Source: an uncultured Pelagibacteraceae bacterium (GTDB lineage: Bacteria; Pseudomonadota; Alphaproteobacteria; Pelagibacterales; Pelagibacteraceae). From it: a DNA stretch of 46,174 nucleotides. Shown piece after piece: positions 3,428 to 6,422 of this stretch (the stretch's first letter is position 1; every line of letters begins with the position of its first letter). The position numbers and the translations under genes are program-made. The notes below the pieces were generated by a model that saw only the letters and a program-made list of their open reading frames with translations, had not been told where the DNA came from and made no database searches. The stretch covers positions 1 to 46,174 of the forward strand of contig CACAKN010000008.1 of NCBI GenBank assembly GCA_902533075.1, in the 5' to 3' direction.

Positions 3428-4024
3428 TTATTTTTCTATTAAAAAAATTCCTAAATTTGAACTTAAATTTTTTATATTTAAATTTAAATCATTGATATAT
3501 GAAATTTTATTACTCTTCATAGCAATAGATTTTGATAAGTTAAAATTTTTTTTTTTACTAAAAAAAACAAAATCCTTTATAGTACAAAGATGAATATTGG
3601 GAGTATTGTACCATTCATCAGGTAAAGTTCTAGTAATTGGCATTGTACCTTTTAAAAGAAGATGGAGTCTTATTTTCCAGTATCCAAAATTAGGAATTGT
3701 AACAATAGCTTGTTTGCCAATTCTTAAAAGTTGATTAATAACATTCTCAGGATTTAAAAAAGCCTGTAATGTTTGACTTAAAACCACATAGTCGAATGAT
3801 TTGTCTGGGAACTGTTTTAAATCCTCTTCGGCATTTCCTTCAATGATAGTTAATCCTTTCGCAATACAGTTTTGAACTTTAGATTTAGAAATTTCAATAC
3901 CTCTTATATTAACTTTTTTCTCTTTAAGTAGATATTCCATTAAAACTCCGTCACCACATCCCACATCTAACACATGTGAATTTTGTTTAATTAAGCTAGA
4001 AATAATTTTAAATTCTGATTTCAT
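3428..4024 (-). CDS. metW: MetW, methionine biosynthesis partner of MetX
   Basis: A class I SAM-dependent-methyltransferase-fold protein of 198 residues that accompanies MetX in many proteobacteria and supports homoserine acylation. The nucleotide-binding motif HVLDVGCGDGVLMEYLL lies near residues 17-33. The SFDYVVLSQTLQ and PNFGYWKIRL segments are typical of MetW. The start is 2 bases after metX, so the two are translated from one message under the upstream SAM-II riboswitch. Its exact biochemical activity is less established than that of MetX. Confidence 0.94.
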   Translation of the reverse strand: MKSEFKIISSLIKQNSHVLDVGCGDGVLMEYLLKEKKVNIRGIEISKSKVQNCIAKGLTIIEGNAEEDLKQFPDKSFDYVVLSQTLQAFLNPENVINQLLRIGKQAIVTIPNFGYWKIRLHLLLKGTMPITRTLPDEWYNTPNIHLCTIKDFVFFSKKKNFNLSKSIAMKSNKISYINDLNLNIKNLSSNLGIFLIEK

Positions 4025-4026
4025 AT

Positions 4027-5145
4027 TTAATTTTCTGAATAAGACTTATCTAAAAAATTTTTAAGAGCTTTTAAGAAATCCGGAACATCTAATAAAAAAG
4101 AATCGTGTCCTTTGTCTGACTCTATTTCCACAAAACCTACATCTGCTCCAATTGCATTTAAAGCTATTACTATGTCCTTATTTTCTTGGGTAGGGTATAA
4201 CCAATCAGAGGTAAAAGAGATTACAAAAAATTTTGCTTTAGTATTTTTGAAAGCATCAGATAAATTTCCATTAAATTCTTTTACTAGATCAAAATAATCC
4301 ATTGCTCTTGTTATATATAAGTAGCTATTCGCATCAAAACGATCTACAAATACTGATCCTTGGTATCTTAGATAACTTTCAATTTGAAAATCTGCATCAA
4401 AACCAAATTTAAGATCATCTCTTTCTTGAAGTTTTCTACCAAACTTTTCTTGAAGACCTTTTTTTGACAAATAAGTAATATGTGCTGCCATTCTCGCTAC
4501 GGCTAATCCTTTATCAGGAACTATATTTTTAGATGAATAATCTCCATCTTGCCAATTGTGATCTGCTGCTATAGCTTGTCTACCAAGTTCATTGAAAGCT
4601 ATATTTTGAGCTGAATGACTAGAAGTACATGCTATTGGTACTACAGTTTTTGTTTTATTAGGATAATTGCTTACAAACTGTAAAACTTGCATTCCACCCA
4701 TCGAACCGCCAACAACAGAAAAAAGTTTTTCAATATTAAAGTGATCTAATAAATTAATTTGAGCATTGACCATGTCGTTAATAGTAATAACTGGAAAATC
4801 TGTACCATATTTTTTTTTTGTTTTAGGATTTTCATGACTCGGACCAAAAGATCCCATACATCCCCCAATTACATTTGCACAGATCACAAAATATTTATTT
4901 GTATCAATAGATTTATTAGGGCCAACAGCAAACGACCACCATCCATCTTTATTTGTTATAGGGTTAATGCCTGTTACAAATTGATCTCCTGTTAAAGCAT
5001 GAAATACTAAAATTGCATTATCTTTTTTATCGTTTAGTGATCCATACGTCTCATATGCTATTGGATAATTAGCGATAATTTGACCACAATCTAGTTTTAA
5101 CGGTTTATCAACCGTTAATATTTTTATATTTTTTTTAGTATTCAT
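4027..5145 (-). CDS. metX: Homoserine O-acyltransferase (MetX type, probably acetyl)
   Basis: Activates homoserine, most likely with acetyl-CoA, for methionine synthesis by sulfhydrylation. It is an alpha/beta-hydrolase-fold enzyme of 372 residues: nucleophile in GGSMGGMQ (Ser148), aspartate in TSDWLYP (Asp314) and histidine in KGHDSFL (His347). The segments AYETYGSLN and [10 protein letters not shown] are MetX hallmarks. Acetyl versus succinyl preference cannot be decided by eye; acetyl is the usual case in alphaproteobacteria. The gene heads metX-metW-gloB and has a 5' leader with a SAM-II aptamer, so expression should fall when SAM is plentiful. Confidence 0.96.
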
Positions 5146-5153
5146 ATATACTG

Positions 5154-5218
5154 GCTAAAAGCTGAATTGAGAGAAAAAAAACTTTTTTAGCTGTTTTTTT
5201 AAAGCGCTCGCAATTCAG
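5154..5218 (-). promoter_or_regulatory. Competing pairings of the metX leader (expression platform)
   Basis: Two downstream segments can pair with aptamer strands. CUGAAUUG (5218-5211), inside the aptamer loop, is fully complementary over 8 bases to CAAUUCAG (5169-5162). The aptamer strand GCUAAAA (5191-5185) is complementary over 7 bases to UUUUAGC (5160-5154), which lies 8-15 bases before the metX start codon. A run of eight U (5181-5174) follows the aptamer and no clear Shine-Dalgarno site is visible. How these segments give control is inferred, not shown. Confidence 0.6.
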
Positions 5219-5232
5219 TTAAATCAGCGCAT
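5182..5232 (-). ncRNA. SAM-II class S-adenosylmethionine riboswitch aptamer
   Basis: On the minus strand the metX leader holds the SAM-II core in order: GCGCU-GAUUUAA (5230-5219), a loop ending in UUGC, the closing strand AGCGC, then an A-rich linker and GCUAAAAAAG (5191-5182), which would form the H-type pseudoknot. Helix P1 is GCGCU with AGCGC. Spacing and invariant segments (GAUUUAA, UUGC, GCUAAA) fit the compact SAM-II class known upstream of alphaproteobacterial metA/metX genes. The aptamer begins about where transcription from the promoter at 5237-5265 should start. The related SAM-V class is an alternative, since it shares much of the binding core. Confidence 0.85.
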
Positions 5233-5236
5233 AAAT

Positions 5237-5265
5237 TTTGTACTAGAAGTTCATTAGTATGTCAA
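5237..5265 (-). promoter_or_regulatory. Sigma-70-like promoter of the metX leader
   Basis: On the minus strand a perfect TTGACA (5265-5260), a 17-base spacer and TACAAA (5242-5237). Predicted initiation near 5230 places the first transcribed bases at the 5' edge of the SAM-II aptamer, which supports both calls. Confidence 0.7.
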
Positions 5266-5336
5266 TTTTTAAAATATTTTACTAATACTATATAAAAAAT
5301 TGTTATTTTAATTATAAAGAGCTTAAAATTAAAAAC

Positions 5337-6422
5337 ATGACAACGGTAAGATTTAAAAAATTCAATATAGAGGCCTATAAACCTGGTAAATCTAGCGTTA
5401 AAAGATTTAGGAAAATAATAAAGCTTTCCGCTAATGAGTCCGCATTAGGTGTAAGCCCTAAAGTTAAAAAATTAATATCTAATAAAAATTTAAGTTTTTT
5501 TAGATACCCGGATGGTAAGTCAAAAAAATTGAGACACCAAATATCCAAAAAATTTAAATGTGATCAAGATAAAATAATTTGTGGTGCTGGATCTGATGAG
5601 GTTATACAAATGTTGTGTCAACTGTTTTTAAAGCCAAATGATGAAGTCATTGTCCCTCAGTTTAGTTTTTTGATGTATAGAATTTACTCCAAAATTGTTT
5701 CTGCAAAGATAGTATTTGCAAAAGAAAAAAACTTTAAAGTTTCGGTTTCAGAAATATTAAAAAAGGTGACCAGAAAGACGAAAATTGTTTTTTTAGCAAA
5801 TCCAAATAACCCAACAGGAACTTATTTGGAAAAAGAAAAACTTCTTGAATTAAGAAAAAAATTAAGAAAAAACATATTATTAGTTGTAGATGATGCTTAC
5901 GCAGAATATATGAAAAATTTTGACTATAAATCTGGTTTAGAATTATTTAAAAATAGAGATAATGTTTTTATTCTAAGAACTTTTTCAAAAATTTACGGCT
6001 TATCATCATTGAGAATAGGTTGGGGCTATGGATCTAGAAAAATAATAAATGGTCTAAATTTAATCAAACCACCGTTTAATGTAAATGAGGTTGCTCAAAA
6101 AGCAGCCATTGAATCTCTTAAAGATTCAAGATTTATATCACGTTCAATAAAGCATAATATTTTTTATGCTAAAAAAATAAAAAATTTTTTAAATAAATAT
6201 AAGATAGATTCAAATAAGGTTTCTGCAAATTTTTTATTATTAGATTTTTCAAAATGTAGATTAAAAGCGAAGTTTTTTTATGAAAAACTTAAAAGAAAAG
6301 GAATTATATTAAGATTAACTGAGGACGGTTATAAACTCAAAAATATGCTGAGATTAACTATAGGTTCAAGAACTGATAGCTTAAAATTTATACGTGCTGT
6401 AGAAAGTATATTTAATAAATGA
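5337..6422 (+). CDS. hisC: Histidinol-phosphate / aromatic aminotransferase
   Basis: A PLP-dependent fold-type I aminotransferase of 361 residues, HisC family. Visible motifs are the substrate-arm region KLSANESALG, FRYPDGKSKKLR, GAGSDEVIQ, the LANPNNPTGTYL motif, DDAYAEYM (PLP aspartate and tyrosine) and RTFSKIYGLSSLRIGWGYG, which carries the PLP lysine. HisC enzymes often also transaminate prephenate, phenylpyruvate or hydroxyphenylpyruvate. Here hisC overlaps tyrA by four bases (ATGA), which suggests that the tyrosine/phenylalanine role matters at least as much as histidine synthesis. That dual role is inference from context. Confidence 0.92.
   Translation: MTTVRFKKFNIEAYKPGKSSVKRFRKIIKLSANESALGVSPKVKKLISNKNLSFFRYPDGKSKKLRHQISKKFKCDQDKIICGAGSDEVIQMLCQLFLKPNDEVIVPQFSFLMYRIYSKIVSAKIVFAKEKNFKVSVSEILKKVTRKTKIVFLANPNNPTGTYLEKEKLLELRKKLRKNILLVVDDAYAEYMKNFDYKSGLELFKNRDNVFILRTFSKIYGLSSLRIGWGYGSRKIINGLNLIKPPFNVNEVAQKAAIESLKDSRFISRSIKHNIFYAKKIKNFLNKYKIDSNKVSANFLLLDFSKCRLKAKFFYEKLKRKGIILRLTEDGYKLKNMLRLTIGSRTDSLKFIRAVESIFNK

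Follow-up and report, generated by a model that had tools for sequence, protein, structure and literature searches.

A SAM-II riboswitch upstream of metX (SAR11_0217) in 'Ca. Pelagibacter ubique' was published in 2009 (PMC2704228), and the same placement before Pelagibacter metX is repeated in PMC5069961. In SAM-II RNAs the ligand is held by bases of L1 and P2 (PMC11508383), and in alphaproteobacteria these elements occur mostly with terminators (PMC2258182, PMC1273637). Terminators have likewise been noted in SAM-II tandems (PMC9481103), and in the full-length bhmT tandem of SAR11 a downstream stretch silences the SAM-II aptamer, a silencing that the authors call puzzling (PMC11508383). In the Sinorhizobium metA leader, AUG1 and AUG2 are separated by a terminator (PMC9373788). 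In the HMP-PP riboswitch, the decision falls in a narrow window with the polymerase at a U-run, and the full-length RNA is trapped at equilibrium (PMC6478431).

The window analysed here is a stretch of 46,174 nucleotides from an uncultured Pelagibacteraceae bacterium, whose 970 kb genome is 75% complete and belongs to SAR11, as a sequence-only reading of the same DNA had supposed. A SAM-II element sits upstream of methionine/SAM-type genes, metX-metW, and both genes named as its target in that reading score over the cut-offs of their NCBIfam models (Table 1). The metX SAM-II of HTCC1062 (PMC2704228) shares gene, class and lineage with that of the window and is probably orthologous, the comparison being by description; that description, in the parts of the source consulted, covers the aptamer with neither an arm nor a platform. 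The sequence-only reading had held that the class controlling metX in this lineage would be informative. The class is indeed SAM-II and not SAM-V, and this is already in the literature (PMC2704228, PMC5069961). The headline, SAM-II before Pelagibacter metX, is therefore known, while the variant of the output region described below is new as far as we found: the portions of the literature consulted yielded no published description of a genus-specific, terminator-less metX leader with an arm.

Table 1. Features of the metX-metW locus and its leader, in window coordinates.
Feature	Position	Strand	Basis or remark
metX, homoserine O-acetyltransferase	4027..5145	-	NCBIfam NF001209, 518.3 bits (cut-off 331)
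metW, starts two bases past metX	3428..4024	-	NCBIfam TIGR02081, 233.8 bits (cut-off 189.5)
-35 element TTGACA	5260..5265	-	sequence; in 74/74 distinct upstream-plus-leader sequences
-10-like element TACAAA, spacer 17 bases	5237..5242	-	sequence; ends six bases before P1
SAM-II aptamer core (P1, L1 with GAUUUA, P2, A-rich L3)	5182..5230	-	RF00521 and RF01726 alignments
P1 5' strand GCGCU	5226..5230	-	RF00521 and RF01726 alignments
L1 stretch behind GCGCU, GAUUUAAC	5225-5218	-	direct sequence reading
Arm's target UGAAUUGCGAG (L1 end, P2 5' strand, part of P1 3' strand)	5207..5217	-	sequence
P2 5' strand UUGC	5213-5210	-	direct sequence reading
P1 3' strand AGCGC	5204..5208	-	RF00521 and RF01726 alignments
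A7C of L3, possible partner of GU7 (5182-5175) in the alternative hairpin	5193..5200	-	minimum-energy folds
P2 3' strand GCUAA	5191-5187	-	sequence
Aptamer 3' end GCUAAAAAAG	5191-5182	-	direct sequence reading
U-tract U8, abuts aptamer	5174..5181	-	sequence
Anti-aptamer arm CUCUCAAUUCA (CUCxCAAUUCA)	5163..5173	-	forms 10 pairs with 5217-5207 around one mismatch

Read on the minus strand, the leader contains the whole SAM-II core in the order that had been claimed for it, and the ligand core GAUUUA, UUGC and GCUAA together with P1 can be followed in an alignment with the metX leaders of g6 and g7. In an all-Rfam scan of 5080-5340, RF00521 (SAM_alpha) matches at 28.5 bits (E 8.5e-5, 5240-5166) and RF01726 (SAM-II long loop) at 32.2 bits (E 1.4e-4, 5236-5177), each over the full model length. 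Both scores lie under the gathering thresholds of 36 and 44 bits, respectively, and with default settings Rfam finds nothing in the window at a gathering score. The SAM-II match spans model positions 1-79 of 79 (E 7.6e-5), with matches in none of 14 control genomes, and each SAM-II model finds one match at E<=0.001 in the window's own genome (150 of 188 and 98 of 1165 candidates scored). The core recurs in all 80 loci that were best by MetX protein similarity (MetX 84-91% identical), the record Candidatus Pelagibacter ubique SCGC AAA795-P11 among them; the exact 27-base pattern occurs in 0 viral contigs. Compared with the RF00521/RF01726 SAM-II class, the window's leader shares P1, GAUUUA in L1, UUGC/GCUAA of P2, the A-rich L3, a promoter before P1 and a methionine gene, but it differs in scoring below both gathering thresholds, in a platform without terminator or Shine-Dalgarno and in its genus-specific arm.

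That SAM-V, or a SAM-II/SAM-V hybrid, governs metX is barely credible, even if the ligand core is common to both classes and both are found in SAR11 (PMC2704228). The covariance-model check proposed in the sequence-only reading gave SAM-II twice at E of about 1e-4, whereas SAM-V (RF01826) is missing among the six models that 5080-5340 matches at E<=10; neither a lack of model matches nor a SAM-V score above SAM-II was found. The one SAM-V of the window's own genome (83.3 bits) precedes a metY-type gene (TIGR01326 over cut-off) and carries the Shine-Dalgarno AAAAAAGGAGUAAUAUG, and no Shine-Dalgarno of this type is present in GCUAAAAAAGUUUUUUUU of the metX leader. Across 41 genomes, 14 SAM-V matches in 13 of them precede open reading frames whose products look like MetY or homocysteine S-methyltransferases and in no case like MetX, two of these calls (L002, L272) being profile-checked and the other 12 judged by first letters. 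In the sampled genomes, SAM-II stands before metX and, in the window's genus, SAM-V before metY.

The low Rfam scores appear to be a property of the family. Leader L133 of g7, another genus of the family, scores 34.1 bits against the RF00521 threshold of 36 despite holding the standard SAM-II 52-mer discussed below, and another terminator-bearing relative, L126, is also sub-gathering at 35.3 bits. In the family, 299 of 397 genomes have a match to RF00521 at E<=0.01 and none is over the cut-off, in a survey with stricter filters and 11 candidates scored per genome among the rows listed. In the order, 133 of 147 genomes match and 37 are over the cut-off, all 37 in the other family, again with stricter filters; in these surveys over 40 genomes few first-look candidates were scored, so that a miss is weak as a sign of absence. 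Since L133 with the standard 52-mer fails and 0/397 family genomes pass, the gathering score is a weak criterion of membership for SAR11 SAM-II, and the window's sub-gathering score is hardly a warning.

A TTGACA/TACAAA promoter had also been claimed, placed for a start at the aptamer edge, and related leaders agree with it: TTGACA-N17 is followed by TACAAA in 63, TAAAAA in 9 and TACATA in 2 of 74 distinct upstream-plus-leader sequences (from the window and 80 loci fetched by MetX protein), with a gap to P1 of six bases in 72 and seven in two. When the stretch upstream of the window's leader was shuffled 5000 times by mononucleotides, 11 of the shuffles fitted the pattern. The metX promoter is unlisted in a promoter scan that requires T as the final -10 base and in which promoter-like sites are no commoner than in shuffles. 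Transcription of metX would start at about 5231-5229, that is, at the aptamer edge. Within the 5' metX codons the plus strand can form a hairpin of nine pairs followed by a T-rich tail (5097-5118), which reads towards hisC; its likeness to a terminator is probably chance, as it falls in metX codons and is absent from the relatives' letters inspected.

What sets the window's genus apart lies downstream of the aptamer, a part on which the sequence-only reading made no remark. Leaders built like that of the window number 117, and 88 of them are distinct; several represent one locus fetched twice and one is the window itself. Each of the 88 distinct leaders has a U-tract of U5-U9, most often U8 (57 leaders), with the proviso that 36 added leaders of the genus were chosen by the U-tract pattern, while the 55 metX leaders failing that pattern are all labelled as other genera or the other family. 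Behind the U-tract, an arm complementary to UGAAUUGCGAG is likewise found in 88/88, as CUC-x- plus CAAUUCA in 74, CAAUUC in 10, and AUAAUUCA or AAAAUUCA in four. Over these leaders the aptamer has a mean column entropy of 0.135 bits, the U-tract one of 0.154 and the arm one of 0.229, compared with 1.273 for the spacer to the AUG. The duplex between aptamer and downstream stretch averages -16.0 kcal/mol, a value that mononucleotide shuffles reach in 0.11% of cases on average across the 88. UGAAUUGCGAG is identical in 117/117 leaders of the window's type; at the same position the other SAR11 SAM-II leaders (n=121) have 16 forms, and the two that share UGAAUUGCGAG are both g6 metX leaders. The pairing of arm and UGAAUUGCGAG thus seems to be under selection, the best evidence being that positions which vary in other SAM-II leaders do not vary in those with the arm; compensatory changes are unobservable with an invariant aptamer side.

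The minus strand of 4950-5340 has no canonical terminator stem, and window positions 5191-5146 hold no Shine-Dalgarno in or next to P2. An AGG-like run occurs within 22 bases before the AUG in five of the 88 distinct leaders, the window having none, and initiation is therefore not of a simple Shine-Dalgarno kind. Capture of the start codon, with AUUCA of the arm pairing to AUGAAU, was considered and rejected: the letters past the AUG vary (AUGAGU, AUGGAU, AUGAAC, AUGAAG) and the arm is constant. In the same genus, leader L213, before a homocysteine methyltransferase-like gene, keeps the SAM-II core and has no terminator by rule.

Pseudoknot-free folding of six leaders gives -15.4 to -20.5 kcal/mol with the arm and -7.6 to -8.1 kcal/mol for the aptamer alone. 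The alternative fold is preferred over folds containing P1 by a mean of 6.7 kcal/mol (1.1 to 12.1; above 3 in 82/88), and as modelled the SAM-bound pseudoknot and the arm hairpin are mutually exclusive, so that the metX switch is probably kinetic. Micromolar ligand would hardly repay such a gap, and therefore SAM should act before the arm emerges. In a stepwise fold of the window, which assumes 12 bases covered by polymerase, P1 persists at 0.86-0.98 up to the emergence of the arm and has dropped to 0 with the polymerase 3 bases short of the AUG. In every one of the 88 distinct leaders the unbound hairpin stops 4-11 bases ahead of the AUG (median 7), and in the window a fold including the first codons pairs to within two bases of it. 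An outer helix before the AUG forms in folds but was not taken as conserved, its register differing among the six leaders inspected. Against shuffles, the window's whole-leader fold is mildly better (z -2.07; 6/200 as good) and the aptamer alone no better (z 0.07), half of the latter being pseudoknot and beyond the method's scoring.

Elsewhere in SAR11 the picture is different. A terminator, taken as a GC hairpin ending at a U-run, is present in 117 of 121 parsed SAM-II leaders other than metX leaders of the window's genus (64 distinct aptamer-terminator pairs), and in 89/89 parsed metX leaders of other genera, these being the 55 that fail the U-tract pattern and 34 others. The four outside the terminator rule are L213 and three leaders before metW in g8 (L194-L196, L194 profile-checked), which have A/U-rich hairpins with U-runs. 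Other SAM-II elements were observed before methylenetetrahydrofolate reductase in g12 and g15 (L197, L201, L204; L204 profile-checked) and before homocysteine methyltransferase-like genes (L193, L213, L214, L126, L137; L213 and L214 profile-checked), and L188 (g5) is a SAM-II plus SAM-V tandem before metY (profile-checked); gene calls for such side leaders without a profile check rest on first letters. The longest Watson-Crick match between terminator and P2 3' strand is 6-9 bases in 50 of the 64 pairs and 2-5 in 14, compared with an average of 3.9 in shuffles. Matched aptamer-terminator pairs average -10.6 versus -9.0 kcal/mol when swapped (lowest swapped mean -9.6), but in a six-group matrix the matched group is best in two groups only, which counts against aptamer-terminator matching. 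On a plain reading of these leaders, the P2 strand would open the terminator when SAM is missing, and with SAM bound P2 would be held and transcription would stop.

A further 26 RF00521 matches failed the first pattern; three (L128, L131, L144) were read by hand into the 121 and 23 stayed outside it. Seven of the 23 (L170, L171, L173, L177, L180, L182 and L184) are SAM-II with a terminator by pattern and a SAM-V-like 3' motif, 15 are of a Shine-Dalgarno type and one, L220, has no core. The 15 SAM-II-like leaders (L169, L176, L178, L199, L202, L205-L212, L226, L227) have GCUAAAGGAG just before the AUG, a longer L1 with 13-15 bases between GAUUU and CUUGC, and a GCUAAA that merges into GGAG 3-8 bases upstream of the AUG of an open reading frame of 55-63 codons. 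No terminator was found in them, P1 pairs in 15/15 with both sides changed (AGUCC/GGACU, UGUCC/GGACA, AGUCU/AGACU), and for six of the small proteins behind such leaders neither Pfam nor NCBIfam gives a family over cut-off. From these sequences, the predicted output of SAR11 SAM-II is mostly a terminator and also a Shine-Dalgarno.

The 52-mer wild-type SAM-II RNA printed in PMC8494917 is letter-identical in two g7 metX leaders, L133 and L134. A GC terminator with a U-run comes next in g7, unlike in the window's genus, which has none. Of 50 g7 metX leaders 49 were parsed (L245 failed the pattern), 36 of them distinct (L133, L134, L141-L143, L145, L148, L150, L155, L179, L181, L183, L185-L187, L229-L244, L246-L263), and GCCC[AG]G-UUUAG-C[UC]GGG[CU] plus a U-run stands just before MetX homology in 49/49 (48 strictly, L256 with one change). 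UUUAGC, the complement of aptamer GCUAAA, is kept in 36/36 distinct leaders. The AUG after the GGG run beside P2 overlaps the terminator hairpin. An open, in-frame AUG stands at this place in 32 of the 49 leaders (20 of the 36 distinct ones), the others lacking it or having it closed, and MetX similarity starts at the AUG behind the U-run, at query residue 1 in 47/49 and at residues 5 and 6 in two. We take the 52-mer to be the RNA of crystal structure 2QWY. The crystallised SAM-II RNA has been presented as a translational switch that occludes a Shine-Dalgarno (PMC10907184, PMC5352136), a view that PMC9373788 shares with a 'probably'. In the portions of the literature searched, the 2008 and 2009 originals aside, we found no mention of a terminator behind it. 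The model translational SAM-II RNA is, judging from the g7 leaders, probably a transcriptional switch before SAR11 metX.

The window's leader also resembles the bhmT SAM-II/SAM-V tandem (PMC11508383, PMC9481103), in that a downstream stretch can undo a SAR11 SAM-II aptamer; in the tandem leaders inspected, however, the terminator would pair with the P2 3' strand, whereas the arm of the window pairs with L1, the P2 5' strand and the P1 3' strand. By analogy with other tandem leaders, pairing of terminator and P2 may offer a reason for the silencing by the linker in bhmT. With the HMP-PP (thiS) riboswitch (PMC6478431) the window's leader shares a long hairpin that wins at equilibrium and a ligand acting with the polymerase at a U-run, but in HMP-PP the hairpin itself terminates transcription and ligand binding switches expression on.

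Our first choice, held tentatively and at less than even confidence, is that metX-metW is under a SAM-II riboswitch whose output is peculiar to Pelagibacter and whose SAM-bound fold would turn metXW down through release at the U-tract. The events that we infer, from SAM binding by the metX leader RNA through timing to the OFF direction and U-tract release, would begin with transcription at the aptamer edge. As the polymerase crosses or leaves the U-tract, nascent P1 and then P2 would form and bind SAM; P2 is partly out of the polymerase at this point (12-base cover assumed), and SAM must therefore bind fast. With SAM bound, the pseudoknot would be held, the leader hairpin blocked and metXW turned down, most likely by the polymerase releasing its transcript where the stable pseudoknot abuts the U-tract. 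If SAM is missing, the arm would emerge and invade L1, P2 and P1, and a long hairpin would form with loss of SAM binding and expression of metXW. We favour release at the U-tract because metX leaders of other genera terminate and because this tract is conserved. The missing stem counts against it, as does the position of the arm behind the U-tract, which leaves the arm no classical antiterminator role; moreover, the 15 leaders with a Shine-Dalgarno at P2 indicate that not every SAR11 SAM-II is transcriptional, and the U-tract may be kept merely through pairing with the A-tract of L3. In the parts of PMC5069961 consulted, metX is not named among the sulfur-limitation responders. A specific form of release, with the ligand-bound pseudoknot itself as the terminator 'hairpin' at the U-tract, the arm making the choice irreversible and no separate platform hairpin, is doubtful.

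Post-transcriptional control with the same sensor and folds is possible and a close rival to U-tract release: in the SAM-bound RNA the long A/U-rich segment that begins at U8 and reaches to the arm could lie open to ribonuclease or Rho, or ribosome access at the start could change, and in the unbound RNA a long 5' hairpin could hide that segment and so keep the mRNA. The absent terminator stem, a folding decision that falls with the polymerase near the start codon and the scarcity of AGG-like runs (5/88, the window none) are in its favour, as is Sinorhizobium metA, whose SAM-II affects both translation and the stability of the RNA (PMC9373788); the 89/89 metX leaders with terminators elsewhere and the U-tract still conserved here speak for release instead, and an effect on translation would have an awkward sign, since the leader is more open when SAM is bound. 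An unbound hairpin ending 4-11 bases before the AUG in 88/88 leaders fits poorly with an unbound state that is fully ON and suggests a hand in translation; because of it release at the U-tract loses and activation by SAM gains odds. Such activation, or two opposed actions of SAM, would have the hairpin hinder initiation and SAM open the leader, consistent with the window fold reaching within two bases of the AUG and with reported incoherent SAM-II regulation (PMC9373788). It is nevertheless improbable, as PMC1273637 describes SAM-II as switching genes of this kind OFF and the register of the outermost helix differs among the six leaders inspected. Still more improbable is a decayed riboswitch whose platform was deleted and whose aptamer is a relic: sub-gathering scores and the lost terminator would suit it, but relatives with terminators are under gathering too, and the aptamer is far less variable than the adjacent spacer (0.135 against 1.273 bits, 88 distinct leaders). 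The sequences themselves show the core, promoter, U-tract and arm, the conservation of these parts, two folds that exclude each other and the lack of the terminator seen in metX leaders of other genera; sensor and folds are common ground for U-tract release and its post-transcriptional rival.

For annotation, the Rfam cut-off hides SAM-II in the SAR11 family and so creates a blind spot, and the g7 terminators question the translational role assumed for a much-studied SAM-II RNA. The comparison indicates that one aptamer has been refitted with different outputs within one bacterial family. There would be three of them: a pseudoknot at a U-tract, if that reading is true, a terminator, and a Shine-Dalgarno at P2. 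SAR11 bacteria are among the commonest marine cells and have few regulators, and how they meter methionine synthesis therefore matters.
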